A DNA stretch of 64,000 bases, taken from assembly GCA_903945375.1 (NCBI GenBank), contig CAJAVP010000001.1:1-64000 (forward strand), given 5' to 3'. How positions within the stretch are numbered: position 1 is the first letter of the stretch; each line of letters begins with the position of its first letter. Of this stretch, positions 14,756 to 64,000 are shown one piece after another. The DNA comes from an uncultured Methylococcaceae bacterium (GTDB lineage: Bacteria; Pseudomonadota; Gammaproteobacteria; Methylococcales; Methylomonadaceae). Made by a program: the position numbers and the translations under genes. The notes under the pieces are model-generated. The model ran no database searches. It had not been told where the DNA came from and saw only the letters and a program-made list of their open reading frames with translations.

Positions 14756-16372
14756 ATGCGGATACCTGACAACAAGCGACACACCTTAGTTAAGCAAGCG
14801 GTTTTGTGCTTTTTTTTAGGGATAAAATTAACAACAGCTCCAGTGTTGGCTGAGCCGGAGCAAGCTGCACAGCAGTCGAGTTTTGATCTTTTAGAGTTGC
14901 GTGTACAAGGCAATACACTCTTAGAGAAGACCGTGTTAGAAAAAACGGTATACCCATTTCTCGGTGTAAAAAAGACTATCGATACGGTAGAAGATGCGCG
15001 TACCGCGTTGGAAAAAGTGTATCACGACCAAGGTTATCAAACTGTTGCGGTTGATATTCCCGAGCAGAATGTAAAAAATGGTGTGATCTACCTCAAGGTT
15101 GTTGAAGGCAAGGTATCTAGGATTCGAGTTAAAGATTCTCGCTATTTCGATTTAGGTGCCATTAAGGAAGGTGTTCCTGAATTAAAAGAAGGCAATGTCC
15201 CTAATTTGCCAAAAATGCAAGAGCAGATAAGTACACTCAGCGCTCAGAGTGTGGATCGAAAAATCACTCCTGTGTTACGGGCTGGCGATACGCCCGGTAC
15301 CTTAGAAGTGGATCTTAAGGTCAAGGACTCATTGCCGTTTCATGGACGTGTCGAGATGAATGGTAGGAATACCGCATCGACCACTCTTACACGCTTAGTC
15401 ACCACGTTGCACTATGATAATTTGTGGCAAAAGCTGCATAGTGCCTCGTTGATGTACCAGGTTTCACCTGAAGATAATCAAGAAGTGGATGTTTGGGCAG
15501 GCACGTATGTGATGCCTGTGCCGATGACTAATGCAAAATTTGCGTTTTATGCGATTAGTTCAACTTCAAATGCACAAATCGCCAGTGCTGGTGCGCTATC
15601 CGTTGTGGGTATTGGTCATATTTACGGCGCTCGATTGATTAAGCCCCTATCTGGTCTAGGTAGTTATAATCACTCGATGACCGTCGGGTTTGATCATAAA
15701 GAATTTACCGAAGATCTTAATTTAATCGGCGCGGACACCATAAAAACCCCGATTACCTATGTACCCTTTATGGCGGAATACTCTGGATCGTACCGAGGCG
15801 AAAAATACTTTGCGTCATTTAATACCGGCGTCAAGTTCTCTATTCGTGGTTTGGGGAATGATCACACTGAATTCAAAAACAAACGGGATAGCGCACAATC
15901 GAATTATTCAATTTTTACTGGCGGTTTGAATTACACACGTGAATTACCTTATGGCCTGGAATTCGCCAGCCGAATCAATGGACAAAAGGCTAACTCCCCT
16001 TTAATTAGTAACGAACAATTCTCCATTGGTGGTATGCAAAGCGTAAGAGGTTATTTTGAAACGCAAGCGCTGACCGATGATGGTTTGATGGGATCGTTTG
16101 AATTGCGATCACCGCATTTGCTACCTGCTTACATGGATACGATCAATAAACTACAAGCTATTGCTTTTTTTGATGGTGGTCGTGGCTGGACACAACACGC
16201 GCCTAAAGGTACGGCTCAAAGCATTGATTTAGCCAGCCTTGGTTTTGGTATGCGTTTCCAATTATGGAAATACTTTGTCGGCGTTTTGGACTTAGGCTTC
16301 CCATTGATTGAGATCAAACCTGTGCAAGCGGGTGATCCTAAATTACATTTCAACATTGCATCGGAATTTTAG
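14756..16372 (+). CDS. Two-partner secretion outer-membrane transporter TpsB (FhaC/ShlB family), copy 1
   Basis: Outer-membrane beta-barrel that exports the TpsA protein encoded next to it. The ATG at 14756 gives a signal peptide (MRIPDNKRHTLVKQAVLCFF... ending APVLA). Two POTRA-like segments follow (FDLLELRVQGNTLL and the VDIPEQNVKNGVIYLKVVEGKV stretch, the POTRA_2 signature), then the ShlB barrel with alternating strands and a C-terminal aromatic residue (NIASEF). The loop-6 motif VRGY (SIGGMQSVRGYFE) is present, as in active FhaC. About 538 residues, the usual size. It is followed by tpsA1 after about 140 bp. Strong similarity to the copy at 43748 is visible along the whole length. Confidence 0.92.
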   Translation: MRIPDNKRHTLVKQAVLCFFLGIKLTTAPVLAEPEQAAQQSSFDLLELRVQGNTLLEKTVLEKTVYPFLGVKKTIDTVEDARTALEKVYHDQGYQTVAVDIPEQNVKNGVIYLKVVEGKVSRIRVKDSRYFDLGAIKEGVPELKEGNVPNLPKMQEQISTLSAQSVDRKITPVLRAGDTPGTLEVDLKVKDSLPFHGRVEMNGRNTASTTLTRLVTTLHYDNLWQKLHSASLMYQVSPEDNQEVDVWAGTYVMPVPMTNAKFAFYAISSTSNAQIASAGALSVVGIGHIYGARLIKPLSGLGSYNHSMTVGFDHKEFTEDLNLIGADTIKTPITYVPFMAEYSGSYRGEKYFASFNTGVKFSIRGLGNDHTEFKNKRDSAQSNYSIFTGGLNYTRELPYGLEFASRINGQKANSPLISNEQFSIGGMQSVRGYFETQALTDDGLMGSFELRSPHLLPAYMDTINKLQAIAFFDGGRGWTQHAPKGTAQSIDLASLGFGMRFQLWKYFVGVLDLGFPLIEIKPVQAGDPKLHFNIASEF

Positions 16373-16402
16373 TTCATAAAACTCGGGTCAGGATTCTTTC
16401 TG

Positions 16403-16445
16403 TCCAAAACAGGGCTTGTGTCGCTTGTCACATCTGTGTTTTGGA
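16403..16445 (+). promoter_or_regulatory. Stem-loop between tpsB1 and tpsA1
   Basis: TCCAAAACA (16403-16411) is perfectly complementary to TGTTTTGGA (16437-16445), with a smaller TGTG/CACA pair inside. No T run follows, so it is not a standard terminator. It may alter the tpsB:tpsA expression ratio or stabilise the messenger. Confidence 0.35.
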
Positions 16446-16512
16446 TAGTGGCAAGATACGTCGTGGTGTTAATTGAACAATATTAAATTTTGCACAAATT
16501 AAGGTGATGAAC

Positions 16513-19500
16513 ATGGGTAATAAAGAAAGTGTGACCCAACACAAATCAGCAATGGAAAATTTTGATTTAAAGCCGCTGTCGGCCTGTGTACGTATGGCGA
16601 TTGTGAGTGGTGTTGTTATGAGTTCCATGTCATCCGCTTATGCCGATTTACCTGTTTCCGCAGAGGTCATGGCGGCGACCGCGACAGCCGTTGCGGCTGC
16701 TACGGCAGTAACCGTTGAAAAACCTACGTTACCGATACCCGTGTCCAATGGGCAAGACTTTGCAACGCTTGGCACGGCAACCTTGCCTGACGGCTACAAC
16801 AAAGATACCGCAGCGGCATTAGACAAGCTGGATATCAATCAAACGACGGATAGAGCTATCCTTAAATGGGATTCTTTTAATGTTGGAGCTGATAAAGCCG
16901 TTTACTTTCACCAGCCGAGCAGTTCATCGATTGCCCTAAACCGTGTGGTGGGTAACGATACTGATCCCAGCAGTATTTTGGGTAAAGTGACCGCTGATGG
17001 ACAAATTTATTTGTATAACCAAAATGGTTTTTTGTTTGGCAAAGACTCCCAAGTTAACGTCAATACCTTAGTGGCATCCACACTCAATATCTCGGATAAA
17101 GTGTTTCAAAATGGGATTGTTCGTGAGTTTGATGATACTGGTAATGCGGCACTTGCGGCTGATTCGGGTGCAAAAACAAACGGCATAATAAATGTCGAAG
17201 CAGGCGCAAGGCTTCATGTCGACAAAAATGGTCGATTATTGATGGCGGCTTCTGAAGTTAACAATAACGGCAATATCAGTGCAGAAGATCAAGGTCAGAT
17301 TCTTTTGGTTGCCAGTAAGGATAAAGTGTATTTGCAGCCAGCGGATAAAAACAGCCCGTTTGCTGGCTTATTAGTCGAGGTTGGCAGTGGCGGAAAAGTG
17401 ACCAACCAAAGTTTGGGGAACATTTCAGCCAAACAAGGCAACATTACCTTAGCCGGTTTTGCAGTTAATCAAGAGGGACGTGTCACAGCGACAACCTCGG
17501 TGAGTGTAAATGGCTCAATTCGTTTATTAGCCAGAGAGGGTGCTGAAAAGCAAAACGAAGCCTTAGTTGCAACACAAACAACCCGACAAACCGCCGCTGC
17601 CGGAGAGTCAAAAGAATCAAAAGTCACATTTAAAAATGGCAGTACCACGGAAATATTGGCCGACAACAGTGGTGGCTTGGCGATTGATGAACAAAAACAA
17701 CCCACTTCCTACATGGAGGTTTCTGCTTATAACGTCGAAATGGAGAACGGTTCAAAAATCCATGCGCCAAGCGGAACCTTATCGGTTACTGCCACGGATA
17801 ACTTATTAGACCCCGTACAAAGTACTAAAGGTCAAATACTTGTGGGGCAAGGTGCAAGCATTGATGTTTCAGGGACAAAGCATATCGCGGCATCTGTTGA
17901 GCGGAATGTGGTTGCTGTACCGGTGCAAAGCTATGAATTACGAGATTCGCCATTACAGAAAGGTGGCGTTTTGAAAGGTCAAACCGTGCAGGTGGATATC
18001 CGCAAACAAACCAAGATTATTGATACGAGCGGTGCGTTAGCACGTTTTGAGCGGGGTATTGATGAGCGTTTAGGGACAGGTGGTACGGTAAATTTTGTAT
18101 CCAGTGGCGATGTGGTTGTTAATGATGGGGCGACGATTGATATTTCAGGCGGTTCGATTGACTATCAATCCGGATATATTAATACCACCAAGTTATTAAC
18201 CGACTATGGACGTATTGTTGATATTAGTGAAGCCGACCCTAACGAACATTATGCGGAAATCTATGGCATCGTAAAACAAACGACGGACAAATGGGGCACA
18301 AAGGAAACGGTTAATGAACAAGCGGAGTATAGCAACAGTCGTTTTGAGGAAGGCTATACACAAGGCTTAGATGCAGGCTCCGTCAATTTATCAACGCCTA
18401 AAATGACGTGGAACGGCGATTTAGCCGCTGGAGCTGAGGCCAATATAAATCAGCGCACGGCGGATAGTATTGCATTTGGTGGCGCATTCAATTTTGATTC
18501 AACGGAATTTAACACCGCACAAAATATTGTTTTACAGGGACAAAAGAACACCCAAGACACGGCTGATTTGGTGTTATCTACCGCATTAACCAATGCCTCA
18601 GGTATTCAGCAATTTAATATTAAAACATTAGGTGGTGTGACAGTTGCCGCAGATGCCAATGTTGAAATGCAGCCCAATAGCCAATTCAGTCTCGACGTAG
18701 GCAAAATTGATATTGAAGGTAATATTTATTCAGCTGGTGGTACCTTGAATTTGACAAGCCGTAATACCGGTTTAGTCGATAACTCCGGTAAATTGGATGT
18801 TGGCAGCAACGCGGTGGTCGATGTGTCGGGGCGTTGGGTTAATGATTTTGCCCAAGGTTATGGTGCAACGCCAAGCGAACCTTTGGCTATTAATGCGGGC
18901 TCAATAAAAATGTCGGCAGTGGGTGACTTGACCTTGAATACCGGTTCTGCACTTAAGGCTGATGGTGGTGCTTGGCTGGCGATGACACAGCAAGTAACGA
19001 ATGGAAAAGCGGGGAGTCTCAGTTTGGCTACCTCGCCAAGATCAGACAACAAATCCTCTCTATTGAGTCTGGGGGGGAGTCTATCTGCTTTTGGCTTAGA
19101 TAATGGCGGAAGTTTGGCTTTGGCAACTGACCAAATTATTGTTGGACAGGCCGATAAAAGCACCTTATTACCTTCAGACTTAGTGCTTGATGTTCATGAT
19201 GGGCGATTTGATATAGCAAAAAATGCTGGGTTTAGTTCCTATAAATTAACCGCTACGGCAAAGGATGTGATTTTCAGAAGTGATGCTGACTTAGCACTCA
19301 CTCAGCAGAACCGAATTTTGGACGGTGATTTTAACCAGCAAGCCAGTAGTGCGTCTATTGCCGGATTTAGTCGATTAGAAACATTGCCTGAGCCACTTCG
19401 TAATCCAGTCGATTTAAATCTGGTTGCTTTACGAGATATCAAATTAGAAACGGGTAGTGAAATCTTAGGTGATAAACAAGCGGCTATAAGTTTATCGACG

Positions 19501-22500
19501 ACCGTGGGCGGGATTTACGTAGATGGTAAAGTGGATGCACCTGCTGGAGCGATATCCTTGCGTACGAATGCTGATCCAGGCGTTGAATATAATAATGCCC
19601 AAGCTATTTGGCTTGGTAGTCACGCCGATATAACGGCTATGGGCGCACCACTTCTTAACCCATTGGGTGGTGATAGTTTACGCACTGGTGTCATGTTAGA
19701 TGGTGGCAAAGTGACGATCAAAGCGCAAAGAGGCTTTGTGGTGACTGAAGCCGGTTCACAAATTGATGTTTCGGGTAGTCGCACCGTGTTGGATTTACCG
19801 GTTGCCAATAAAGAGTCGGGAGGCATCCATTATGAGCCAACAATTGTGGCTTCAAACGGCGGAACTATTGCTATTACCGCTGCTGAAGGCGGTGTTTTAG
19901 ATGGTCAATTTAAGGGAATACAAGGTGGCGCGACTCGCTTAGGCGGGCAAATGACTATTGCTTTAGATCGTTTAGAGCGTAATCCACCTGATCCAGCATT
20001 AATTCCTTTTCCCAATGCGGATTTATCACTGAATATTGTGCAAACAGCGCAAACACAACTACCCAATAATCTGACTTTTGGCACGGCTATGCCAAATTCA
20101 ATCACCGGGCAAATGTTAGTGAGTGCGGATAAATTGAACCAAGGCGGTTTTGCTGATGATCGTTTCGTATCCAACAATCAAGTCAAGTTTTCGGGGGATG
20201 TCAATTTATCCACGCAGTCGCGTATTGATATTGATGCCCCACGTATCGCTTGGGAGAGTTTAGAGGGTGCAAGTAACGGTGCAGTGACACTGAATACGGC
20301 ATTTTTGCGGATAGGTTCAAATTTAATCCGCGAAGTGGATCGTTTGCCCAGTTTAGGTCAGGGTCAGTTTACGGCTAATACACAGTGGTCTGAGTTAGGT
20401 GGCGCGTCTTTATGGACGGGCTTTAGTGACGTCCATTTAAACAGTGCTCATGATTTGCGAACTTTAGGTATCGTTGATATTAGCCAAGCTAACCGCGATT
20501 ACGTTGGGGAAATGGTGACTGCGGCAAATTTAACCTTATCCGCCAGTCAAGTGTATCCCGCGACTTTAGCGCATTTTAGCTTTTCATTGAAAAATAATCC
20601 CGATGCTCAACTCAACATCGCTAGCAGTGGCAATCAAGACAAAACGCCATTATCTGCTGCTGGTATTCTGAGTTTTGATGCGCCAGTCATTAACCAAAAC
20701 GGTGTGGTCTTAGCGCCCTTGGGTAATATCAATCTTAATGCAGCCAACACCTTAAGTTTAGGTGAAAACAGCGTAACTTCTGTTTCGGCAGCGGGTCAAT
20801 TAATTCCCTTCGGTGTGATTCAAGGCGGTTTAGATTGGCTGTATCCCTTGGATAGCAACCATAACTTAGTATTGGCAACGCCACCTGAGAAGAAATTGGT
20901 TTTATCTGCACCAACAGTGAATTTAGCCAAAGGCAGTACCGTTGATTTGGCGGGTGGCGGTGATTTATTAGCATATGAGTTCTTGCCAGGTTCAGGTGGT
21001 TCATTTGACTATTTAGATAAAAATAGTCTGTCTTATCAAGGTGGCTTTGCGGTTGTGCCTTCACTCGGCTCAGCTATCGCACCTTATGATCCGATGCAAA
21101 GTGCGGGCTTTAATTATGCGCCAGGTAGCCAAGTTTATTTGAGTGGAACGCCTGATTTGCCAGCAGGCGAATACACCATTCTGCCGCCGCGTTATGCATT
21201 ATTACCCGGAGCTTTTTTAGTTACACCACAAGCCAATTCGACGGATAGCATTGCCGCGACTACGACGGCTGCGGGACTGCCAGTGGTGCCAGGTTATCAG
21301 GCGTTGGCGGGTACAACGGTTAAAGAGCCCCGTTGGAACAGCTATTTAATTGAAAGTGGTACAGACATTCGTAAGCATTCAGAATACGACGAGCAGAAGG
21401 CGAATACATTTTATGCGAATCAGGCACAAAAAAATGGTTTAGCCGCGCCGATTTTGCCAATGGATAGCGGACAAATTTCGATTGCCGCACAAGATAAATT
21501 GGAATTGCAGGGCGATTTTAAAGTGGCTTCTTTCGGTGGAAGAGGTGCAAAAATGGATATTGCTGCGAATCGCTTAAAAATTGTCAAAACTTTGAGCGAT
21601 ACGCCGACACAAGGCACTTTGGAAGTATTAGCAGACGATTTGAGTCAGTTGGGTGTAGACAGTTTGTTTTTAGGGGGTAGTCGAAGTAATAACGTGCTGA
21701 CAGCTGCAACCGATTTAAACGTCACCTCGGATGAGGTAACCTTTGATACCAATGCAAAAGTAGCCGTTACTGATTTGGCTGTTGCCGCAAAAAATAAAGT
21801 TGAAATCATGAGTGGGGCTGAGTTAAGCGCGACCGGCACTGTAAATACCGGTGATTCGTTATTTAATATTACGGGTGATGGCGCATTTATAAGAGTTTCA
21901 GCAGATAACCAAGTCACACTAAATAGAACGTCAATTCAAGGTCAAAGTGGTGATTTATTAATCCAAGACGGTGCGATTTTAGCAGCGTCAAAATCTATGT
22001 TGTTGGATGCGAGTCAATCCACGACCTTAGCCGGTGATATTCAGATGAACGGCGGCTCGTTAAATCTGAGTGCGAATGCGATAAATATTGGTGAAGTATC
22101 TGGTTTGTCCAATAACGATTTAAATCTTACAAACGAAAAACTTCACAATCTTGCGGTAGATACATTGGTGTTAAGCAGTAAAGACAGCGTGGATTTCTAT
22201 GGCAACGTTGGTTTTGTCAATGCCGCAGGTAGCTTGGAGCCATTGAAATTCGATAATTTGTCGATTAATGCCGCAGGGTTTTCGGGCTTTGGTAAAGATG
22301 GCGAGGTTGCTAAATTATCTGCTAATACATTAAACCTCCAAAATAGCATAAATGCACAATCAACCCATGCGATAACGGGTCAAGGCTCATTAGAGCTTAG
22401 TGCGACTAATTACACTCAAGGTCAAGGTAAGTTCGATGTCTTCGGCTTCAAACAGGCGAATATAGCCGTTGATCAAGGCTTTAAAGCGACCGGAGCAGGA

Positions 22501-25500
22501 TCGTTAAATTTCCAAGGCGATGTCAATTTGACCGCCGGTTATATGACCGGAGCGGGTGGTAGTCATTTGGATATGGATGCTAGCGGATATCGCATCCAAA
22601 CGAGTGGCAATAGCAATGTTACGACCGTGCCGGCTGTTAATTTGGGCGGTGCAATGAATCTTACCGCTGATGCGATTGATTTTAATGCCAATGTACTGAT
22701 GCCTTCAGGCTCTATTGGACTGCATAGTTTGCAGGGTAATGTGGTCATTGGCAAAAGTGCAAATTTAAATCTCGCAGGTCGAGCAGTAAATTTTGCGGAT
22801 ATGGTCAGTTATACGCCAGGTGGAGATTTACGTGTAACGGCAGACAAAGGTCAAATCAGTTTGCTTGAAGGCTCAGTCGTTGATTTAAGTTCTAGTGGTG
22901 ATACCGCCAAAGGTGGCACATTAAGTTTAAAAGCGCTTGAAAAAACCATTGATTTAGCCGGGAAAATAAAAGCAACTGCCGGAGGTGCGGAGTTGGATTT
23001 AGCACAATTTAGTGCTACTGCGGGTTTTGATAGTTTAATGAATACATTAAATGCAGCAGGTATCACGAAATCTCTCAGTTTCCGTATTCGTGAAGGTGAT
23101 ATCGTTCAAGCTAGTAATCAGATTATTAAGGCTAATGACATTACTTTAGTGGCGGATCAAGGCGCAATTAATCTGGCTGGGCAATTGAACGCTAATGCTA
23201 GCGCAACCGGCGGATCTATTAGTCTTTATGCGGGTGATAAGCTGAGCTTAGAACAAGGGTCACAACTCAGTGCTACGGGCGCAATAGGTGGGAATGTTTT
23301 AATCTCTTCCGTAGATAATGATGCAGATGATAATAGTGGCATTACTATCAAATCGGGTTCATTAATCGATGTGAGCGGAGCAAGCAAAGAAGCGGGCGGT
23401 AGCGTGACGTTGCGAGCGTTACGCGTAGATCGTAACCAAGACGGTGTGGATGATGCAGTCAATATTCAACCGATAGCCGGTACGGTTCAAGGATATGCCG
23501 AGAAAGCAACCGGTACTCGGTTTTATGCCGAAGCGGTTAAAAAATACAGTAATTCAGATTTTGCTGTGTTAGGACAAATTGGTGCAACTGACATTGCTAA
23601 AATCCAGCAAGATAATAATAAATTCATGACCGCTGACACCAGCAAAACTGTTGCTGCTGAGTTGGGTGAGGGGATTCGTTTAAAACCAGGCGTTGAGATC
23701 GATTATAACGGTGATTTGGCATTGAATAGTCGTTGGGATTTAGTGGATTGGCGCTATGCGGACAACGCCATGCCAGGTACGTTGACGATAAACACCAATG
23801 GCAATTTAGCGTTGAATGCAAGCTTAACGGATGGCTTTAAAGACGAAACCTTGGTGGGTGTTAATATTCGTGACCGTTTACAAACTGGGGATTCTTGGAC
23901 GTATCGCTTAACTGCTGGAGCAGACTTAAACAGTGCTGAGCTGGGAGCAACGTCGACCTCGAAAAATTTGACTTTGGCGGCAAATACGGTGATTCGCACC
24001 GGTACGGGTGATATTCAACTTGCAGCGGGCGGTAATGTCAAACTAACAGATCAAACCTCGACTATTTATAATGCCGGACGCGCAGAAACGAGCAATCGTT
24101 ATGGCACGATGAATGATGCGATGGTGGCTTTCATGCTATACGGTGAATATCCAGTGGATGGCGGTGATTTAGTTATCAAGGCCGGTAATAATATTGAAGG
24201 GGCTATCAGTAATCAGTTTATTGACAGCTGGCTACTACGTTTAGGTAGTTGGACAAATAATCCAAGCCATACTAACGAATTACCAACAGCCTGGGCAGTG
24301 GCTACCGGTTATACCAGTGACGGTTATGGTAATGCTGCCGATTCTACAGTGCCATTGTTCCAAGAAAATATGGGTTCATTTGGTGGGGGTAAGGTCAATA
24401 TTTCAGCAGCAGGTAATATTAACAACTTATCTGTAATGATTCCGACCACAGGTAAGCAAGTTGGACAAGCGGTTGAAGGTAGTTTTTCTGATTTTACTAC
24501 CAATGCTGTCCAAGTTCAGGGCGGTGGTGACATGCAGATTGCTGCGGGTGCAAATATTACTGGAGGCGCCTATTTCTTAGCTCAGGGTAATGGCTCGATT
24601 TCAGCGGGCGGAGAGATTACGGGTAATAGCCTTCAATTTGCAAAAGGGCCTCAATTAGTGTTAGGGGACAGCCAGTTTGAGTTGAGTGCCAAAAGCGGTA
24701 TTAAGATTGCAGGGGCTTCAGATGCAATGGTTCTGCATTCAGGAAATAACTATGCCTTAGATGGTAGCAATTTCTTTAGTTATACGGACAAGAGCGGATT
24801 AAATCTTCAGTCGCTCTCTGGCGATATTCATTTAGGGGCTGATACCAGTCTCATCGGCTCAACTAATATGCTCAACATATCGGGTAGTCAGGCGAGTTTA
24901 TCAAAAATCTATCCCGCTTCTTTAAAATCGACGGCTTATGAAGGCAGTGTGTTAGTGGATAACCAAATTACGCTCTATCCATCACCGACAGCAAATTTGA
25001 CTCTATTGGCAAAAAACAATATTGCATCGAATGTCGATTCATTGCGTTTAAGCATGTCAGATGCCGATAAGTTATTGTTACCTTCCAGCATTTATCCTCT
25101 GGCAAGAAATCAGTTGAATGATTCTGAAGCTGTATTAAACCCATTTGGTATAAGTGCCTTGGTTCATGCCGCCGTACCGGTTCATAGTAACGACAATGAG
25201 CCGGTGAGAATTGTCACGACTGAGGGCGATATTAAGAGCATTCAAATCAATGTCCCTAAGAATGCAATCATTCAAAGCGGTAATGACATTAATAACGTCT
25301 TACTTAATGTTCAACATCTCAATGATGGGGATGTATCAATTATTTCGGCGGGTAGAGATATTCGCTTCACCAGTACGCGTAGTCCAGATGGTTTGTTAGT
25401 GGATAACTTTAATGCCATCAAGGTCGCAGGTCCCGGTGATGTATTAGTAAAAGCGGGACGAGATATTGATTTTGGAGCATCAGGTGGTTTGTCCACAGTG

Positions 25501-27015: not shown

Positions 27016-27199
27016 CTTGCGTATAGATTAGCAATCAACGAATTTATTTTAGGGCATGCAGTGTAAATGAAGAAATATTGATCGATTGTTAACAGTTTAT
27101 TGATAGAAACCTTGGTTATCTGAAATTGCATCTAAAAAGTAATAATTTTGTAACGAATCTTTGTAATAATTCACCTAACTAAATATAAGTGAGAAAAAA

Positions 27200-29014: not shown

Positions 29015-29034
29015 TCGGTATATTTGTTTACAGG

Positions 29035-29071
29035 AGCTTAGGGCGCGATAAGTTCGAGTCCTAAGCTTTTT
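29035..29071 (+). terminator. Attenuator-like hairpin between exbB1 and exbD1
   Basis: AGCTTAGG (29035-29042) pairs with CCTAAGCT (29060-29067) followed by a run of T, the layout of an intrinsic terminator. Being inside the operon, it could lower exbD-tonB expression relative to exbB. A second small stem (GGCGTA/TACGCC, 29073-29085) follows at once. The second locus lacks any such gap. Confidence 0.5.
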
Positions 29072-29125
29072 AGGCGTACTACGCCAAAAAAACGTGTTAC
29101 TGCCAATTTATAAGAGCTAGAGAAT

Positions 29126-55726: not shown

Positions 55727-56653
55727 ATGAACTTAGCCTGTCAGAGCGACAGTCACGGCGACCTCTGTGACGTGGTTGCTGAGCTGCGTCAAATACGCAA
55801 TGAATCGCTAGAAAACCGGCGGCGTAAAGGTCATCCGCCCAAATTGCCTTCACGCAAAGCCTTAGTTGGCGTGTTAGATGGTTTGTCCGCTGTGCTTTTT
55901 CCAAATCGTTTGGGTTCTGGCGATTTAACGGATGACAGTGTTGATTATTTTGTGGGTCATACACTCGACACAGCACTGCGAACTTTATTTGAACAATTAG
56001 GCCGTGAATGCCGTTTCAAGGTTGAACAGCAAGGCTTGTTCGGCGTGGATTGTCAGCAACAAGCCACGATGATTAATTGTGCATTTGCTAGGCAACTACC
56101 TAAAATCCGACAGTTATTAGACAGTGATTTACTGGCCGCATTTGAAGGCGATCCGGCGGCAAGCAGTTTAGATGAAGTGCTTATTTGTTATCCGGGCATG
56201 ACGGCTGTTATTTATCACCGGATTGCCCATGCCCTACATACGCTTGGTTCGCCGTTGGTGGCTCGCATCATTGCAGAAATCGCCCATTCGGTGACGGGCA
56301 TTGATATTCATCCTGGGGCTCAAATTGGCGGAAGTTTCTTTATTGATCACGGCACTGGTGTGGTGATTGGTGAAACCGCCGTAATCGGTCGGCATGTGCG
56401 TGTTTATCAAGCGGTCACTTTAGGCGCAAAACGCTTCCCCAAAGAGGCGGATGGCAGCTTGGTGAAAGGCAATGCGCGTCATCCCATTGTTGAAGATGAT
56501 GTCGTGATTTATGCCGGAGCAACCCTATTAGGGCGTATCACGATTGGCAAAGGCTCATCAATAGGCGGCAATGTCTGGCTGACCCAGAGCATTGAGCCCA
56601 ATAGTGTAGTTACGCAAACACAAGCTAATAATGAATTAAAACCTATAACTTAA
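55727..56653 (+). CDS. epsC: Serine O-acetyltransferase, EpsC/CysE type
   Basis: Makes O-acetylserine from serine and acetyl-CoA, the first step of cysteine synthesis. 308 residues; the N-terminal half is alpha-helical, and the C-terminal half is a left-handed hexapeptide beta-helix (HPGAQIGGSFFIDHGTGVVI, IGRHVRVYQAVTLGA, YAGATLLGRITIGKGSSIGG). The catalytic DHGTG and HPIVEDDVVI segments are present. Length and N-terminal extension fit the EpsC group often linked with family 2 encapsulins. A GGAG site lies before the ATG, 28 bp after tpsA2. It probably supplies cysteine for the desulfurase two genes downstream. Confidence 0.93.
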   Translation: MNLACQSDSHGDLCDVVAELRQIRNESLENRRRKGHPPKLPSRKALVGVLDGLSAVLFPNRLGSGDLTDDSVDYFVGHTLDTALRTLFEQLGRECRFKVEQQGLFGVDCQQQATMINCAFARQLPKIRQLLDSDLLAAFEGDPAASSLDEVLICYPGMTAVIYHRIAHALHTLGSPLVARIIAEIAHSVTGIDIHPGAQIGGSFFIDHGTGVVIGETAVIGRHVRVYQAVTLGAKRFPKEADGSLVKGNARHPIVEDDVVIYAGATLLGRITIGKGSSIGGNVWLTQSIEPNSVVTQTQANNELKPIT

Positions 56654-56687: not shown

Positions 56688-57605
56688 ATGTCTGATATAC
56701 ATCAAGCCCATACCGCGTTAAGCGATGTCGCTGCACGCACCTTAGCCAATGCCACCAAAACAGTGCCGATGATGTCAACCATCACGCCGCGCTGGTTGGT
56801 GCATTTACTGCAATGGGTTCCTGTTGAGGCCGGTATTTATCGCGTCAACAAAGTAAAAAATGAAACCAGTATCGCGGTCGATTGTTCCAATCTCGACGAG
56901 CGCGTTCTGCCGCAAACGTATGTCGATTATGAAGAATGGGGTCGTGAGTACCGTTTGGGCGCGGTCAATAGCGTTTTAGATGTGCATACTCGTGTTTCTG
57001 ATTTATACAGTAGTCCACATAATCAAATTCAAGAGCAGTTACGTTTAACTATCGAAACGATTAAAGAACGTCAAGAATCTGAGCTCATTAATAACACTGA
57101 ATACGGTTTGTTGCATAACGTTGCTGAGCTTAATAAAGTGCAATCTCGTACTGGCGCACCGACTCCCGATGATTTTGATGAGTTACTGGCCAAAGTGTGG
57201 AAGCATCCGGCGTTTTTCTTGGCGCATCCTTTGGCAATTGCGGCTTTTGGGCGCGAATGTACGCGTCGTGGCGTGCCACCTGCAACGGTTACGTTGTTCG
57301 GTTGTCCGTTTATCACATGGCGCGGCGTACCTATCATTCCATCCGATAAACTTAAAATCGTTAATGGTAAAACCAATATTTTGTTAATGCGTACGGGTGA
57401 AAGCCGTCAAGGCGTGGTGGGACTTTATCAGCCAAACCTGACAGGCGAACAAAGTATGGGCTTATCGGTACGCTTTATGGGCATCAACCACAAAGCGATT
57501 GCCTCGTATTTAATTTCTCTGTATTGCACCTTGGCGGTGTTGACTGAAGATGCGCTGGCCGTGCTAGAGAACGTGGTCGTGGACAACTACTATGACTACA
57601 AGTGA
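56688..57605 (+). CDS. srpI: Family 2A encapsulin shell protein (SrpI type)
   Basis: 305-residue HK97-fold protein that self-assembles into a protein nanocompartment. Size and sequence fit the SrpI-type family 2A encapsulins, including STITPRWLVHLLQWVPVEAG near the N terminus, YEEWGREYRLG, NNTEYGLLHNV, VWKHPAFFLAHPLAIAAFGR, GVPPATVTLFGCPFITWRGV, and LYQPNLTGEQSMGLSVRFMG. No signal peptide or membrane helix is present. It starts after AGAGGAAATA and its end overlaps the next gene by 14 bases. In this family the cargo is a cysteine desulfurase encoded next door, as seen here. A phage capsid is the only alternative and no other phage genes are nearby. Confidence 0.92.
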   Translation: MSDIHQAHTALSDVAARTLANATKTVPMMSTITPRWLVHLLQWVPVEAGIYRVNKVKNETSIAVDCSNLDERVLPQTYVDYEEWGREYRLGAVNSVLDVHTRVSDLYSSPHNQIQEQLRLTIETIKERQESELINNTEYGLLHNVAELNKVQSRTGAPTPDDFDELLAKVWKHPAFFLAHPLAIAAFGRECTRRGVPPATVTLFGCPFITWRGVPIIPSDKLKIVNGKTNILLMRTGESRQGVVGLYQPNLTGEQSMGLSVRFMGINHKAIASYLISLYCTLAVLTEDALAVLENVVVDNYYDYK

Positions 57606-59202
57606 TCAGAATTCATTCGCTACGGGTGTTAGTGGCTTGATACCGGAATTTTCTCAGGAACAAATAGAGCAGATGGCTAACGTCTTATTTCGAGCTGTTC
57701 CGCATACCGAGCCCGCTGAGTTAATTAATTACACGCAGACAGCCATAACCGAGCAAGCCGACACTCATCCTCGAGCGCAGGCTTGTGCAACAAAGCTGGC
57801 TGAGCAGGCGCGTGCTTTCGTGCCGAATGATGATGTTGTGACGATACCTGAAGAGGCTGAGTTGCGGCAAATTCTGGCACAACTGGCTAATACCTCCAGT
57901 TATCCGCGTACGCCATTAAACGAAACCAGCGGTTCACACTTTTATTTTCTCAATGACTTACCGGCGACGGCAGATGCGTTAAGTGTTTCGGCGTTTGATG
58001 TGCAGGTAGTGCGTCGAGATTTCCCAATATTGCAGGAGCGCGTTAACGGCAAGCCATTAATTTGGTTGGACAATGCGGCGACGACACAAAAACCGCAATG
58101 CGTTATTGATCGACTGAGTGCCTTTTATCAACATGAAAATTCCAATATCCACCGTGCCGCGCATGAATTAGCGGCACGCGCGACGGATGCTTATGAAGGT
58201 GCGCGGGCGACCGTGGCGCGGTTTTTGAACGCTTCAGCCAGTGAGGAAATTGTTTTTGTGCGCGGCGCAACCGAAGGCATTAACTTGGTTGCCCAATCAT
58301 GGGGGCGTGAACAACTCAGTCCCAATGATGAGATTGTCGTTACTTGTTTGGAGCATCACGCGAATATCGTACCTTGGCAGCAATTGTGTGAGATGACAGG
58401 AGCACGGTTGCGTGTTGCTCCCGTTGATGACAGCGGGCAAGTGATTTTGGATGCGTATGAAAAATTGCTCAACTCCCGCACTCGATTAGTGGCTTTTACC
58501 CAAGTATCAAACGCGCTAGGCACGATAACGCCAGCACGAACGATGATCGAAATGGCGCATCGTCATGGTGCTCGGGTTTTGCTTGACGGAGCGCAATCGG
58601 TTTCGCATTTGCGCGTTGATGTGCAGGCACTCGATTGTGATTGGTTGGTCTTTTCCGGTCATAAAATCTTTGGCCCAACTGGGATTGGTGTGGTGTATGG
58701 CAAACGTGAGTTGCTGGATGCCACTCAACCTTGGCAAGGCGGGGGTAATATGATTGAAGATGTCACGTTTGAACACACGCGCTATCAAGCGGCTCCGGCA
58801 CGATTTGAAGCGGGCACGGGTAATATCGCTGATGCTGTGGGCCTGGCAGCTGCTTTGGATTATGTCGAGAAAATTGGGCTTGAGGCAATCAACCGCTATG
58901 AGCATGACTTATTACAGTATGCCACACACGCTCTCAAAGTAATTCCGGGCTTGCGTTTGATCGGTACGGCGGCGGAAAAAGCCAGTGTGCTTTCATTGGT
59001 ATTAGCTGGGCGAACCACTGAAAGCATCGGTACGGCCTTGAACAAAGAAGGTATCGCGGTACGCTCAGGTCATCATTGTGCACAGCCAATTTTGCGGCGT
59101 TTTGGCTTGGAAAGCACAGTGCGGCCGTCTTTGGCATTTTATAACACGTACGAAGAAATTGATGTGTTGGTCAGTGCGTTAAAGAAAATACAACGTAGCT
59201 AA
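57592..59202 (+). CDS. Cysteine desulfurase with N-terminal encapsulin cargo-loading extension
   Basis: PLP enzyme that removes sulfur from cysteine. 536 residues: an N-terminal extension of about 135 residues (Gln/Glu/Ala-rich helices, then a low-complexity TSSYPRTPLNETSG linker) precedes a SufS-like catalytic domain from about residue 140 (RRDFPILQERVNGKPLIWLD). PLP-binding K358 is in FSGHKIFGPTG, and the persulfide cysteine C496 is in RSGHHCAQPI, followed by the RPSLAFYNTYEE end. The extension is the expected targeting region for the encapsulin lumen. Its start lies inside the encapsulin gene (14-nt overlap), so expression is coupled. Free SufS lacks this extension. Confidence 0.93.
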   Translation: MTTSDQNSFATGVSGLIPEFSQEQIEQMANVLFRAVPHTEPAELINYTQTAITEQADTHPRAQACATKLAEQARAFVPNDDVVTIPEEAELRQILAQLANTSSYPRTPLNETSGSHFYFLNDLPATADALSVSAFDVQVVRRDFPILQERVNGKPLIWLDNAATTQKPQCVIDRLSAFYQHENSNIHRAAHELAARATDAYEGARATVARFLNASASEEIVFVRGATEGINLVAQSWGREQLSPNDEIVVTCLEHHANIVPWQQLCEMTGARLRVAPVDDSGQVILDAYEKLLNSRTRLVAFTQVSNALGTITPARTMIEMAHRHGARVLLDGAQSVSHLRVDVQALDCDWLVFSGHKIFGPTGIGVVYGKRELLDATQPWQGGGNMIEDVTFEHTRYQAAPARFEAGTGNIADAVGLAAALDYVEKIGLEAINRYEHDLLQYATHALKVIPGLRLIGTAAEKASVLSLVLAGRTTESIGTALNKEGIAVRSGHHCAQPILRRFGLESTVRPSLAFYNTYEEIDVLVSALKKIQRS

Positions 59203-59308: not shown

Positions 59309-61198
59309 ATGAACAAAACAATTCATAAAACGCTAATGCTTGGTTTATTCAGCCTGCTGATGCCAAGTTTGGCGTTAGCTTGGTGGAATAACGATTGGTC
59401 ATCACACAAGTTGTTGACCCTTGATGCCGGGGTAACGGGTGCGGATATCCAAGAAACCTTGACGGATGTGCCTGTGCTATTGCGCTTGCATACTGGCAAT
59501 TTTGGCTATTTCACCGAATTGGCTGAAAACGGTAAGGACTTGCGTTTTATGCTAAACGATCAAACTGCACTCAAATTTGCAATCGATAAAATCGAACCGG
59601 CGGCAGAATTGGGTTTGGTTTGGGTTAACTTGCCAACAGTACGCGGAGGAGTCAGCACAGATACCTTTTCAATGTATTACGGCAACGCCCAAGTTGCCGA
59701 TGCGTCGGATTCGCCGGGAATCTACGATGTCAATCAAACCCTCGTTTTTCATTTTCATGAAGGTGAAGCCTTACCTCAAGATGCAACCGCGTATGCCAGC
59801 CATGCCAGCGAGTCTAAAGTGGTCATTGATCCGGCTGGATGGGTAGGCGCAGCCGCCAGTTTTAATGGCCAAAGCGGCGTCACCATCAATGCGACTCCGG
59901 CATTAGCGATTCATCCTGAGCAGGGTTGGACGTTTAGCACTTGGCTTAAAGTCGATCAAGCGCAGAATGCCGTCTTGTTAGAGGCTAAAGATGGAACGCA
60001 GCAATTGACTTTAAATATACAAGGGTCAGCGATTTCAGCGACGTATCGCGGCGTACAAACGGAAGTCAAAACTGCGGGCGCACCATTGAATTTAAGCCAA
60101 TGGCAACACGTAGCCGTCAGTGCATACGCCGATAAATTGATTGTTTATCTCAATGGACAAGGGGTCGCTCAAGCCCCGATTCAACTGCAAGCTATGAATC
60201 CGAGTGTAACAATGGGCGCTAATTTCATCGGTTTGCTGGATGAAGTGCAAGTGGCTAAACAGGCGCGAAGCGCAGACTGGCTGAAATTTCAATACCGTAG
60301 TCAAAGCCCTGATTTTAATCTCATTGATTTTGGGCAAGATGAAACCGGCGGCGAAGCAGAAGGGCCAAATTATTTTGTCATCATCTTGCAAAGTTTAACC
60401 GTAGATGGCTGGGTGGTGATTGCCCTCTGTGGGGTTATGTTGGTGATTAGTACCTTAGTGATGATTAATAAAGGTTTGTTATTGCGTCGAGCTCGCCAAG
60501 ATAACGCGGCCTTTTTAAAACAATATCGCACGGTTGATGCGGAGCATTTATCGGCGTTGGATCGTGAAGAAAGTGAAGATGAACGCGAAATTGAAGCCTC
60601 GGAAATTTTGTCAGCCTGGGTAGGTAAGCACGATCATTTTCAAGGTTCGCCGATTTATCATATTTATCATGCCGGTGTACATGAGCTAAAAATCAATTTT
60701 GGCAATGGGAATGCACCGATAGCTTTGTCACCTGAAGCCTTAAATTTGGTGCGTACTCGATTGGATGCAGCGGTGGTACGTGAAAATCAGAAATTAAATA
60801 ACAACATGGTGCTGTTGACGATTGCCATTTCAGGCGGGCCTTTCTTGGGATTGTTAGGAACGGTCATGGGCGTGATGATTACGTTTGCGGTGATTGCAGC
60901 AACCGGCGATGTCAATATTAATTCTATTGCGCCCGGTATTTCCGGTGCGTTGGCGGCAACGGTTGCGGGTTTGGCGGTGGCGATTCCTGCCTTGTTTGCC
61001 TACAACTATTTACTAACACAAATCAAAGAGATTACAGCGGATATGCAGGTGTTCACGGATGAGTTTTTGGCGATGATTTCCAAACGTGCGGCGGATTTAC
61101 AGCGCATTGATAAACAATTAACAGTCACTTTCTCTGATGAACTCATTGAATTGCTGGTTGAGCGCATTGCGGCGAAGCAAACCGAGGTCAGCGTATGA
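59309..61198 (+). CDS. exbB: ExbB/TolQ-type proton channel fused to DUF2341-LamG ectodomain, copy 2
   Basis: 629-residue paralogue of the 27200 gene. Signal peptide ends LALA (residue 24), then DUF2341 starting WWNNDWSSHKLLTLD (with LLRLHTGNF, 59-65), then a LamG-like region (about 145-335, WTFSTWLKVDQ, WQHVAVSAYADKLIVYLNG). TM1 is about 366-392, an acidic helix with EREESEDERE-type residues lies near 418-432, and TM2/TM3 are about 500-532 and 541-568 (GGPFLGLLGTVMGVMITF, SGALAATVAGLAVAIPALF). A C-terminal tail of about 40 residues is longer than in copy 1. Its stop overlaps the exbD2 start (ATGA), unlike copy 1, where a hairpin-bearing gap separates the genes. Confidence 0.9.
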   Translation: MNKTIHKTLMLGLFSLLMPSLALAWWNNDWSSHKLLTLDAGVTGADIQETLTDVPVLLRLHTGNFGYFTELAENGKDLRFMLNDQTALKFAIDKIEPAAELGLVWVNLPTVRGGVSTDTFSMYYGNAQVADASDSPGIYDVNQTLVFHFHEGEALPQDATAYASHASESKVVIDPAGWVGAAASFNGQSGVTINATPALAIHPEQGWTFSTWLKVDQAQNAVLLEAKDGTQQLTLNIQGSAISATYRGVQTEVKTAGAPLNLSQWQHVAVSAYADKLIVYLNGQGVAQAPIQLQAMNPSVTMGANFIGLLDEVQVAKQARSADWLKFQYRSQSPDFNLIDFGQDETGGEAEGPNYFVIILQSLTVDGWVVIALCGVMLVISTLVMINKGLLLRRARQDNAAFLKQYRTVDAEHLSALDREESEDEREIEASEILSAWVGKHDHFQGSPIYHIYHAGVHELKINFGNGNAPIALSPEALNLVRTRLDAAVVRENQKLNNNMVLLTIAISGGPFLGLLGTVMGVMITFAVIAATGDVNINSIAPGISGALAATVAGLAVAIPALFAYNYLLTQIKEITADMQVFTDEFLAMISKRAADLQRIDKQLTVTFSDELIELLVERIAAKQTEVSV

Positions 61199-61599
61199 AA
61201 GCGAACGAAGAGGGTAAAGTCTATGATGACATCAATATCACACCCATGCTGGATGTGGCGTATGTCTTACTGTTGATTTTTATCATCATGACGACGGCAA
61301 CTGTGCAAGGTATTACCGTCAATTTACCCAAAGCGAGCAGTACGCCGCAGTTGTCAAAGCCCAAAACGAAGGCCATTTCAATCACTAAAGACGGTACGAT
61401 TTATTTAGACACGTACCCCATTTCTTTAACGGATTTAGAAACGCGCTTAGGTCAATTTAAAGCTGCGACTCCTGATTTACCCGTGGTTGTTAAAGCCGAT
61501 GCTGCTGTGCAATACGAAAAAGTGATTGACGTGTTGGATGTGGTGACACGCTTGCAAATTAGCCAACTCGGTTTAGTCACGCAAAAATTGGTTAAGTAA
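61195..61599 (+). CDS. exbD: ExbD/TolR-family proton-channel subunit, copy 2
   Basis: 134 residues, the same length as copy 1. NITPMLDVAYVLLLIFIIMT is the membrane helix, with the conserved Asp in PMLD. GITVNLPKAS follows, and the periplasmic domain ends VTRLQISQLGLVTQKLVK. It overlaps exbB2 by four bases and is followed by tonB2 after 3 nt. Confidence 0.92.
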   Translation: MKANEEGKVYDDINITPMLDVAYVLLLIFIIMTTATVQGITVNLPKASSTPQLSKPKTKAISITKDGTIYLDTYPISLTDLETRLGQFKAATPDLPVVVKADAAVQYEKVIDVLDVVTRLQISQLGLVTQKLVK

Positions 61600-61602: not shown

Positions 61603-62271
61603 ATGCAAAAATACCAACGCTGGCTGCGACATTTACCGCTATTGATTGGCAGCGTGTTGACGGTGTTGATTGCGGTTGCCGTGTTTATTTTGAAAGATAA
61701 GTTTCAAAAACCGTCACAACCCAAAAAGCAGATGCAGCAAATCACTATGATTCAACCACCGCCACCGCCTCCACCTCCGCCCGAGCAAAAACCGCCAGAA
61801 CCCGAACCTGAACCGGAAAAGTTGCCAGAACCTGAGCCACAGCCAGAACCGGAACCTACGCCAGAAGCTGCGGCTGAACCGGCAGGCGAAGAATTGGGCG
61901 TTGATGCCGAAGGCGGCGCTGGTGGTGATGCGTTTGGTTTAATAGGCAAGAAAGGCGGACGTAGTTTGCTAGGCGGGGCAGGTGGCAGTGCTATTTTATG
62001 GTATGGCGGTCAGGTTAAACGCGGTTTGGAAGAGGCGTTACAAAGACTATTGCCGGATAGTATTCTCAAATCAACCTATAACCTGCAATTGACTGTTTGG
62101 ATTGATGAAAGCGGTCGTATTAATCGTGCTGAATTAGCTAGCGCGAGTAGTAAGCCGGAAGTCGATCAAGCGGTGCGTACGGCGTTAAGTCAACTGCAAT
62201 TACAACTGCCAAAATCGCCACCGGAATCAATGCCACAGCCTTTAAAAGTGCGCGTAACCTCAAAGATTTAA
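61603..62271 (+). CDS. tonB: TonB-family energy transducer, copy 2
   Basis: 222 residues: an N-terminal anchor (LPLLIGSVLTVLIAVAVFIL), a run of nine prolines, then an acidic EP/PE repeat spacer (about 60-92). The glycine motif LGVDAEGGAGGDAFGL and KGGRSLLGG follows, then a C-terminal domain with LTVWIDESGRINRAELA. The EP-repeat spacer is longer and more regular than in copy 1. Same role and uncertainty as copy 1. Confidence 0.88.
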   Translation: MQKYQRWLRHLPLLIGSVLTVLIAVAVFILKDKFQKPSQPKKQMQQITMIQPPPPPPPPPEQKPPEPEPEPEKLPEPEPQPEPEPTPEAAAEPAGEELGVDAEGGAGGDAFGLIGKKGGRSLLGGAGGSAILWYGGQVKRGLEEALQRLLPDSILKSTYNLQLTVWIDESGRINRAELASASSKPEVDQAVRTALSQLQLQLPKSPPESMPQPLKVRVTSKI

Positions 62272-62316
62272 TTGAAGCTTACGCTTCACCCACTGCAAGT
62301 AATGAGAGTCATCACT

Positions 62317-64000
62317 ATGATTAAAAAAACCCTAGCCGTGCTACTGGCAAATTCGCTGATAACGCCGGTACTGGCAGATGAAAAAGACGATTTGCTCAAA
62401 CTTCGGCAAGATATTGCTAGAGAGCGTGAAGAATTGACGGAATTAAAACAGACTACCACGAACCTGATTGATGTATTCGTGCAGCAAGGTTTGTTGGATA
62501 AGCAAAAAGCAGCGACCTTATTAAACACGGCTAAAAGTCAAAAACTGGAAGAATCAACAGAAGCGCCTACCGAACAACCCGCCAAAGATGCCAAGCGTAT
62601 TCGCGTGACCTATGTACCCGATTTTGTAAAAGAGGAAATTCGTCAGGAGGTCATGGCGGGCTTGCAAGACAAAGTGGTTGCTCAAGTTAAGACCGATGCC
62701 AAACAGGAAAAATGGGGGATTCCAGGCGCATTACCCACTTGGTTAGATCACGTCAAATTGACTGCCGATGCCCGTTTGCGTATGCAAGATGACGAGTTTA
62801 ATGGCGACAATAAAAGGTATTTGGATTATCCGTCGATTAACAAAGAGGGTGGCGAATTGTCCGCGCAAGAGCGTAACGAAGCGTATTTAAATACCACGAA
62901 GGATCGCTTGCGGTTGCGTGAGCGTTTTCGGCTGGGACTCGACGCACAAATCACCGACGGCTTAAAAGCCGGCTTGCGTTTATCGACAACGAATCAAATG
63001 AGTGCTGTTTCTAGCAATCAAACTTTAGGCAATACAGGGCAAAGTTATCAGGTAGCGATAGATCGTGCCTTTATTCAATATGACTATCTTGATGCTCTGC
63101 ACAATGATTGGTTTAGTGTGTACGGCGGTCGTATTGCTAATCCTTGGATGTCCACCGAAATGGTGTATAGCCCTGACTTGAGTTTTGAAGGTTTTGCAGG
63201 GACTTTTCGTTGGCATATGAACCAAAACAATGAGACGGTGAAAAACTATCGAGCAGCCGAGGCGAATAGTCGTTTTGGGCTGCAGCTCGGGCCACAAACT
63301 CCCGATTCGGTGTTTATGACGTTGGGTGTATTTCCTATTCAGGAAGTCAATTTTTCGACGGTGGATAAATGGTTGTTGGGCGGACAAATCGGTGTCGATT
63401 GGTTGGTGCATCACGACTCGCGCTTAAAAGTGGCGGCGGCTTTTTATGACTATGAAAATCTCCGTGCCCATGCCAATGCACGCGATCAATTTACCTACGA
63501 TTGGACTGCTCCGCAGTTTAGTCAAAAAGGCAATACGATGGTGCCGATTAATCTCAATGATGGCTTTAATGGACGTTGTACAAATAGCCAAAGCTTGCAA
63601 GGGCAGGGCTGTCTATATGGTTTAGCCTCTGATTTTAAAATCTTTGATGCAACCGTCATGTATGATTTTGCTGATTTTGCACCTGTTCATGCTTTAGTGT
63701 CATTGGATTATGCGAAAAACCTCGGATATGACGCTGGGCGTTTGGCGCGTGAATTTCCGGGTTATTTCAATGCAACGACTCATGTTGATAACAAAGATAG
63801 AACGAATGCTTTGCAAATTCGGCTCGATTTGGGTCATCAAGACATTCATCGCTTCAATGATTGGAGTGCAATTTTTGCTTATCGTTATGTGCAACGTGAT
63901 GCTTTATTGGATGCGTTTACCGAGACGATTTTCCACCAAGGCGGGACTGATGCTAAAGGTTGGATGCTGGGCGGAAGCTATGGCTTAGCGAAAAATACTT
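62317..64000 (+). CDS. Putative outer-membrane porin, copy 2 (3' end outside window)
   Basis: Open frame running off the window end; about 561 codons are seen. ATG at 62317 gives a signal peptide (MIKKTLAVLLANSLITPVLA); an in-frame ATG at 62302 is the alternative. The mature part starts DEKDDLLKLRQD and has a helical N terminus with LKQTTTNLIDVFVQQGLL, the VTYVPDFVKEEIRQEV linker, and a barrel region with LTADARLRMQ and RERFRLGLDAQITDGLKAG, matching the porin at 30222 along its length. It follows tonB2 by 45 nt. Near the end GWMLGGSYGLAKN corresponds to GWVIGGNYGLMKN in copy 1, so few residues are missing. Confidence 0.82.
   Translation, partial: MIKKTLAVLLANSLITPVLADEKDDLLKLRQDIAREREELTELKQTTTNLIDVFVQQGLLDKQKAATLLNTAKSQKLEESTEAPTEQPAKDAKRIRVTYVPDFVKEEIRQEVMAGLQDKVVAQVKTDAKQEKWGIPGALPTWLDHVKLTADARLRMQDDEFNGDNKRYLDYPSINKEGGELSAQERNEAYLNTTKDRLRLRERFRLGLDAQITDGLKAGLRLSTTNQMSAVSSNQTLGNTGQSYQVAIDRAFIQYDYLDALHNDWFSVYGGRIANPWMSTEMVYSPDLSFEGFAGTFRWHMNQNNETVKNYRAAEANSRFGLQLGPQTPDSVFMTLGVFPIQEVNFSTVDKWLLGGQIGVDWLVHHDSRLKVAAAFYDYENLRAHANARDQFTYDWTAPQFSQKGNTMVPINLNDGFNGRCTNSQSLQGQGCLYGLASDFKIFDATVMYDFADFAPVHALVSLDYAKNLGYDAGRLAREFPGYFNATTHVDNKDRTNALQIRLDLGHQDIHRFNDWSAIFAYRYVQRDALLDAFTETIFHQGGTDAKGWMLGGSYGLAKNT

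Follow-up and report, generated by a model that had tools for sequence, protein, structure and literature searches.

Two diverged gene clusters combining two-partner secretion proteins, an ExbB-ExbD-TonB motor and a porin in an uncultured Methylococcaceae bacterium

The first 64,000 nucleotides of contig CAJAVP010000001.1 (assembly GCA_903945375.1), from an uncultured Methylococcaceae bacterium, contain two loci, A and B, in which the genes for a giant two-partner secretion (TPS) protein, TpsA, and its transporter, TpsB, are accompanied by genes for an ExbB-ExbD-TonB motor and a porin of the Porin_5 family; this whole stretch is referred to as the window. Judged by their sequences, both belong to a single conserved envelope system that has homologues in the Pdt-type clusters of pseudomonads. 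The composition of the system is known; the window holds two diverged copies of it, one of them a new variant that carries an encapsulin module. Comparison across genomes shows that TpsA with a DUF3739 domain, ExbB with a DUF2341 domain and Porin_5 co-occur as one unit, with TpsB, ExbD, TonB and a coiled-coil protein linked to them. We tentatively propose, at somewhat less than an even chance, that the motor applies the proton-motive force to a two-partner export or assembly unit, that both loci are Pdt-like, and that locus A serves phosphate and locus B sulfur or oxyanion supply. The host is probably a methanotroph, because an AMO-family (PF02461) gene is present.

Conservation of TpsA, motor and porin as one unit

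Among 101 related genomes, DUF3739 TpsA, full-length Porin_5 and the long DUF2341-ExbB occur in the identical 45 genomes, and the remaining 56 are without all three. A sample of 369 genomes from the class has DUF3739 above cutoff in 23, full Porin_5 in 24 (partial matches weaker than about 1e-100 being excluded) and DUF2341-ExbB in 23 (excluding G263, which has the lectin-like part alone, and counting G201 and G170 from fragments). All three families are found in 22 of the 24 carriers, and the two exceptions are genomes that are 85% and 64% complete. These co-occurrence counts carry no correction for phylogeny, but the class carriers are spread across many families; the genome sets for Fisher tests, like the A/B classes behind the encapsulin count below, were assigned by hand, with a few fragments uncertain. 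On the co-occurrence in both samples, a chance pairing of TpsA, porin and motor was rejected. The conservation of the gene set suggested in a preliminary description of the window extends far beyond the host genome, to loci from the order, the class and named organisms, and neither the relatives nor the class sample hold a complete genome with this type of TpsA that lacks the porin and motor.

In a sample of the phylum, DUF3739 was found in 14 of 398 genomes; class and phylum neighbourhoods were inspected in the genomes with matches. In the stretches fetched, G000, G207, G372, G748, G770, G806, G825 and G839 have a motor or porin gene no more than 20 kb from a TpsA. Neither was found beside TpsA in the stretches fetched for G730, G702, G648, G603, G579 (3 kb only) and two further TpsA of G825. 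Several of these have instead a gene that weakly matches the TonB profile and, by analogy, may be VreA-like.

The genes of the window were identified by Pfam and NCBIfam scans of 30 window proteins. Locus A spans 12783-32713 and locus B runs from 43748 to beyond 64000, with all of their genes on the + strand. In locus A, the gene for TpsB (14672..16372), a POTRA_2 domain and ShlB barrel whose profile matches CdiB/FhaC structures, is followed by that for TpsA (16504..27015), a protein of 3503 amino acids (aa) with a TPS domain, a C-terminal DUF3739 domain and the tail motif LSVEVIGYG. Next come ExbB (27200..29014), with periplasmic DUF2341 and LamG domains, ExbD (29126..29530), with a transmembrane (TM) aspartate in TPMLDLAYVLL, proline-rich TonB with a TonB_2 C-terminus (29543..30202), Porin_5 (30222..31922) and a conserved coiled-coil accessory protein (31922..32713), which recurs with the cluster in relatives. 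Locus B encodes TpsB (43748..45328), TpsA (45331..55698; 3455 aa, with TPS and DUF3739 domains, the tail LSVDVIGYG and a pair of cysteines), ExbB with DUF2341 and LamG (59309..61198), ExbD (61195..61599), TonB (61603..62271) and Porin_5 (62272..64000, and beyond the window as far as contig base 64092; L073). Its intergenic gaps of -14 to 106 bp are operon-like.

At loci A and B the TPS domain (PF05860) matches with E=1.6e-23 and 6.6e-21, TpsB has POTRA_2 and ShlB above cutoff with a single POTRA_2 stretch called in each copy, and ExbB, ExbD and TonB exceed their Pfam cutoffs, TonB having a TM segment, a Pro-rich stretch and a C-terminal domain. The ExbB proteins are long (604 aa in A, 629 aa in B) because DUF2341 and the lectin-like LamG domain precede the proton-channel part. 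Threonine-containing channel helices in ExbB and the TM aspartate in ExbD were read by eye from the sequence; we take these Thr and Asp residues to be channel residues.

Between the loci, identity (BLASTP) is 47% for TpsB, 35% for TpsA (47% at the C end), 40% for ExbB, 64% for ExbD, 36% for TonB and 41% for Porin_5, and the host genome has two matches each to DUF2341, DUF3739 and Porin_5, none of them outside these loci. The Pfam and BLASTP results agree with the preliminary description, in which TpsB, TpsA (about 3500 aa), ExbB, ExbD, TonB and porin were said to occur twice on the same strand with homologous members throughout. In locus B all six members stand in that order, but genes for CysE, an encapsulin and a cysteine desulfurase are inserted between TpsA and ExbB. 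This insert had been overlooked, as had the phosphate link and the phosphate-binding-type and coiled-coil genes of locus A. No coiled-coil gene follows the porin of locus B. The coiled-coil protein is weakly DUF3450-like in 9/34 relatives, the window protein itself is not, and by sequence it matched only generic coiled coils in the PDB.

Gene order in the order was compared in 47 hand-picked stretches around long ExbB matches, two of which are the window's own. Upstream of ExbB, 31/45 order loci and 15/21 class loci have a TPS gene at a distance of no more than 2.5 kb; the TPS pair is divergent in two of the 14 order exceptions (L052, L077) and elsewhere in 12. A scan of named organisms, limited to the best 80 of 561 confirmed relatives, leans to the Stenotrophomonas group, because it was anchored on a Stenotrophomonas sequence. 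In all 80 of its loci no more than 300 bp separate the end of TpsB from the start of ExbB; 75 loci have Porin_5 and 63 have the coiled-coil gene, with some absences due to contig ends and no coiled-coil match in the Stenotrophomonas loci. The usual order in the kin of the window is periplasmic binding protein-TpsB-TpsA-ExbB-ExbD-TonB-Porin_5-coiled coil, and in the Pseudomonas and beta groups it is TpsA-TpsB-ExbB-ExbD-TonB-Porin_5-coiled coil. In Stenotrophomonas the cluster includes a FecR gene and, by eye, type II secretion-like genes.

Several other arrangements and neighbours were seen. A further class of DUF2341-ExbB-ExbD-TonB genes adjoins neither porin nor TPS genes (L104:3047-11494, L071:12649-17643); in these genomes, one porin-less DUF2341 motor adjoins a type II secretion secretin and another a V/A-type ATPase subunit gene. 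One cluster has a tandem pair of ExbD genes (L221:14720-15535), and L224 is a possible motorless variant. In the window, an IS21 IstB gene, a short tyrosine-integrase fragment (792-1292) and a tRNA-Ser (1615-1704) make positions 1-1704 resemble the remnant of a mobile-element insertion. Between loci A and B lies a gene for an LVIVD-repeat and RTX protein (39202-42618, - strand); G010 (L199:6061-9777) and G006 (L045) have homologues of it close to the system.

Porin, TpsA tail and possible action of the motor

The model of the locus A Porin_5 protein (mean pLDDT 72) shows a barrel of 16 strands and a helical N-terminal domain, and it has no plug. Its fold is closest to OmpM1 of Veillonella and to ordinary porins; the 50 Foldseek PDB matches shown include OprO and do not include a TonB receptor. 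A sequence search of the PDB gave one chance match (E=0.44). Identity as a TonB-dependent receptor, with a 22-strand barrel and plug, was rejected on the 16 strands and the absence of a plug. The usual partner of TonB is therefore missing.

Porin_5 could itself be the outer-membrane partner of the motor, with TonB opening or remodelling it through a conserved periplasmic N-terminal segment in energised uptake of phosphate or another oxyanion, and with TpsA acting as a separate capture fibre. In L036, L039, L045, L054, L055, L056, L058 and L078 and in the class locus L114 the ExbB-TonB-Porin_5 block is intact and the TPS genes lie elsewhere; a Pho-type site precedes exbB (see below); and 41 of the 42 rows of alignment A4 contain the N-terminal segment, as V[RA]V[PQ]Y[VI]. 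Against this, the model is that of an ordinary 16-strand porin without a plug, and passive phosphate porins are not known to need energy. Moreover, one genome has TpsB and Porin_5 with no motor beside them, and in four order loci the motor has no porin beside it. We consider this alternative unlikely, and retain it because the motor-porin unit is intact in eight order loci with the TPS genes elsewhere.

We favor, as stated above, a motor that acts on the TPS pair, and the end of TpsA offers a candidate point of contact. The C-terminus was modelled, at low confidence (mean pLDDT 62), as a beta-helix followed by a disordered tail. The strand-like motif [VIFLM][STN]V.[VIFL][VIL][GSAN][FYLW]G is found in this tail in 60/89 TpsA rows, compared with 0.02% of shuffled tails; a looser version, written after the misses had been seen, is found in 85/89 rows (82/86 distinct tails), compared with 1.5% of shuffled tails. 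The C-terminal domain of TonB could grip this conserved peptide on its flexible tether, and the end of TpsA may stay periplasmic.

In the mechanism that we hypothesize, TpsB would pass the giant beta-helical TpsA to the surface, and TpsA would stay anchored with its disordered C-terminal tail in the periplasm. The ExbB-ExbD-TonB motor, with its lectin-like periplasmic ExbB domain and aided by the coiled-coil protein, would spend the proton-motive force on the TpsB-TpsA assembly, either finishing export or holding or remodelling the fibre. The plugless Porin_5 would supply a diffusion path, outer-membrane anchorage, or both. We infer the contacts of the motor from gene association, for which a role in energised export or assembly would be an economical explanation.

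The combination of a giant surface fibre, an ExbBD-type motor and a coiled-coil protein also fits a gliding or surface-motility machine, in which the motor would drag TpsA fibres along the surface by analogy with Glt/Agl and GldLM. Residues 14-81 of the locus A TonB weakly resemble GltJ, far below the GltJ family cutoff. No other gliding gene was found among the 30 window proteins scanned, the phosphate signs indicate nutrition, and the pseudomonads that carry the cluster are not known to glide. We regard such a machine as highly improbable.

Phosphate signs at locus A and a sulfur module at locus B

Locus A begins with a gene for a periplasmic binding protein of the DING/PstS type (12783..14390), with PBP_like_2 below cutoff (E=3.1e-5) and the CRRGSGSGT motif kept. 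The window protein alone had no match in the PDB by sequence. The top matches of its family profile (A6) are DING phosphate-binding proteins (5j1d, E=9.5e-16), and the Stenotrophomonas binding protein strongly matches the DING protein 5j1d (495 bits). The R..SGT motif, presumably made up of ligand residues, is present in the window protein and in 29 of 44 binding-protein rows; R..GAA takes its place in 10, and five fragments or variants are unclear.

Pho-box-like 11-bp repeats precede exbB in many relatives. With a loosened core, TGT[CA]A[TC], and p<=0.05, sites were found at 21/22 A-type, 8/20 B-type and 15/24 other gammaproteobacterial loci, the A-type figure being partly circular because the core was loosened after the A-type upstream regions had been inspected, a point that counts among those weighed below. 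All A-type sites are on the + strand, at a median of 66 bp upstream of the start, and the controls in the same loci gave 0/22 for exbD, 1/22 for tonB, 2/22 for the porin and 4/19 for tpsA. In Stenotrophomonas the signal lies before tpsB (9/9 with the strict core, and on the - strand with the loosened core), and in the Pseudomonas/beta group the loosened core precedes 9/86 TonB-profile genes, VreA-like genes among them. In locus A of the window the repeats are weak (27137..27165, + strand; p=0.065), their position resembling that in 21/22 A-type relatives. A PhoR-type histidine kinase and response regulator pair is encoded at 1770-3749 (- strand), 9 kb from locus A.

Among the 29 binding-protein rows with R..[GST]SGT, a Pho-type site is present at 23 of the 28 for which an exbB or tpsB upstream region was tested. 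The 10 R..GAA rows have a site at two, L062 (- strand) and L072 (where it belongs to another motor, the own cluster being L066), which leaves 1/9 distinct loci. The R..GAA rows mostly represent the clade of window locus B, and this clade is mostly without both Pho sites and the phosphate motif; in locus B itself no Pho-type site was found. The Pho-box-like sites before A-type exbB and the DING/PstS-class binding protein suggest that the system in A-type relatives likely serves phosphate starvation, and locus A looks phosphate-controlled. We hypothesize that locus A is the phosphate form of the system, with a PhoB-type site before exbB and a DING/PstS-like binding protein, features from which it probably captures phosphate or phosphate-bearing matter under starvation. 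A literature search on phosphate starvation in Methylobacter with hemagglutinin and TonB gave nothing relevant.

Shared control by phosphate could also be all that holds the genes together: the cluster would then be a starvation regulon, and its motor would power ordinary TonB-dependent receptors whose genes lie elsewhere. Envelope functions that are otherwise unrelated would be brought together by Pho control, passages of a 2009 paper link the P. aeruginosa cluster to cell-surface signalling (PMC2729926), and DUF2341 motors occur without an adjoining porin or TPS gene in four order loci (L053, L071, L072, L075) and three class loci (L098, L104, L106). Yet TpsA, porin and motor co-occur exactly in the 101 genomes even where they are unlinked, and the TonB-receptor family was not found among the 30 window proteins scanned. 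We think such co-regulation improbable as the sole explanation.

The insert in locus B comprises genes for a serine O-acetyltransferase of the CysE/EpsC type (55727..56653; above the EpsC and below the cysE cutoff), a family 2A encapsulin shell (56688..57605; NF041162, 526 bits, cutoff 380) and an encapsulin cargo cysteine desulfurase (57592..59202; NF041166, 866 bits, cutoff 800), so that both shell and cargo are above curated cutoffs. Encapsulin 2A was found in 37/101 relatives. Both encapsulin 2A and a B-type ExbB were assigned to 17 genomes; in five of these (G000, G019, G063, G081, G084) the two are no more than 15 kb apart, in varied arrangements, an association tested by a binomial that ignores phylogeny; in G034 the distance is 27 kb. 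The module and the B-type ExbB of G063 are separated by genes for a CysA-type ATPase and a permease. ModE-like HTH-TOBE-TOBE regulators, two recognised by Pfam and the third by eye, neighbour three of the B-clade binding proteins, so molybdate or another oxyanion is also possible for locus B. The ModE-like regulators and an ABC-TOBE ATPase stand at L072:10470-11327, L199:5045-5890 and L197:9300-11679.

In published work on a cyanobacterium, a family 2A encapsulin is described as induced by sulfur starvation. Like that system (SrpI), in which the encapsulin is paired with a cysteine desulfurase, locus B has shell and cargo, along with the serine acetyltransferase; it differs in that the module sits inside a TPS-motor cluster, and the words hemagglutinin and TonB are absent from the main texts of two papers on such encapsulins (PMC8049743, PMC8346489). 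Locus B may be a derived paralogue that has left the Pho regulon and taken up a sulfur module of the family 2A encapsulin type, and, given this loss and gain, it probably serves sulfur (or other oxyanion) limitation. A broader proposition is that the window represents a large and widespread subclass of TPS systems driven by the proton-motive force, a dedicated motor gripping the TpsA tail (with its conserved V-x-V-x-G-[FY]-G strand) or TpsB and working the fibre, and that locus B was re-assigned from phosphate to sulfur when it lost the Pho promoter and took in an encapsulin sulfur store; this we consider doubtful.

A number of observations weigh against the reading that we favor. The motor is apart from the TPS genes in 12/45 order loci, with the porin in eight and without it in four (L053, L071, L072, L075), and in the 12.7 kb fetched for G715 (L224:2841-7235) the genes TpsB-Porin_5-coiled coil were found but no match to ExbB, ExbD or TonB. 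The motor-porin unit may be transcribed alone, because the A-type Pho site lies between tpsA and exbB and the motor is sometimes apart. With the strict core CTGTCAT (p<=0.05), sites before exbB fall to 8/22 A-type, 3/20 B-type and 7/24 other gammaproteobacterial loci, and with the loosened core the Pseudomonas/beta group has them at 1/65 exbB and 19/68 tpsB. In the window, the sites of locus A are borderline (p=0.065 at exbB and 0.045 at tpsB, in nine tests), and Pho-type sites precede the binding-protein gene in 0/4 A-type loci (window p=0.93). The sulfur link is not strictly B-specific, because in G030 an A-type ExbB and an encapsulin gene are about 16 kb apart. Finally, passages of a review describe known TPS systems as working without an energy source (PMC5422565).

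Comparison with known systems

The preliminary description knew of no named system of this composition, but P. aeruginosa has one: passages of PMC2729926 and PMC7035377 describe pdtA, pdtB, exbB2, exbD2, tonB4, PA0696 (a putative porin) and PA0697 as a cluster that depends on PhoB and sigma-VreI, and the former ties it to a cell-surface signalling system. The composition of the window clusters is therefore partly in print. The protein classes of this PUMA3-regulon cluster (in the order TpsA-TpsB-ExbB-ExbD-TonB-porin-PA0697) are identical to those of the window, and its control by PhoB and phosphate may have a counterpart at locus A. Locus A has all Pdt/PUMA3 members, its coiled-coil gene being the PA0697 counterpart by position; here PAO1 was compared by published description, and homology was shown to the Pseudomonas loci fetched, whose gene order agrees with the published one. 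The 80 named loci (Pseudomonas, Stenotrophomonas, beta) hold TpsB-ExbB, and nearly all hold ExbD-TonB-Porin_5 of the window families where the contig allows. The window differs in its TpsB-TpsA order, in the Pho-type site that A-type exbB has of its own and in the encapsulin module of locus B. No VreA/VreI/VreR-type regulator was found among the 30 window proteins scanned; the VreA-like genes flanking Pseudomonas/beta loci have an STN domain in 4/4 tested and TonB_2 in one, in line with published descriptions of VreA.

A pattern of several tpsA genes with one tpsB-exbBD unit was described in 2009 (in part of PMC2729926). In 2020, a passage of PMC7035377 termed exbB2-exbD2-tonB4 a "still uncharacterized putative TonB system", and as far as that passage and the open-access literature go the motor is uncharacterised. 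We found no report there of TpsA and a motor as an obligate unit. The present comparison suggests a role for this motor of P. aeruginosa, and locus B connects a giant surface protein with a sulfur-related nanocompartment.

With FhaB/FhaC, CdiA/CdiB and HMW1, the pairs of the window share the TPS domain and the POTRA_2-ShlB barrel. Unlike known TPS systems, they co-occur with a dedicated motor and porin, and their TpsA ends in DUF3739. The review cited above (PMC5422565) treats as an open question how TPS proteins are driven over a membrane that has no energy source. In the subclass described here, many families of the class have TpsA, a proton-driven motor and a porin co-occurring as a unit, which opens an energised type Vb system to direct test. 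HxuCBA of Haemophilus influenzae is likewise a TPS pair that cooperates with a TonB-linked outer-membrane protein (passages of PMC5422565); there HxuC is a TonB-dependent transporter, whereas in the window the cluster encodes the motor itself and the model of its barrel is that of a porin without a plug. Oar/TonB-dependent secretion of PopC in Myxococcus xanthus, described in part of PMC6434023, provides a precedent for ExbB/ExbD/TonB in protein secretion, with a TonB-dependent transporter in place of TpsB and TpsA.

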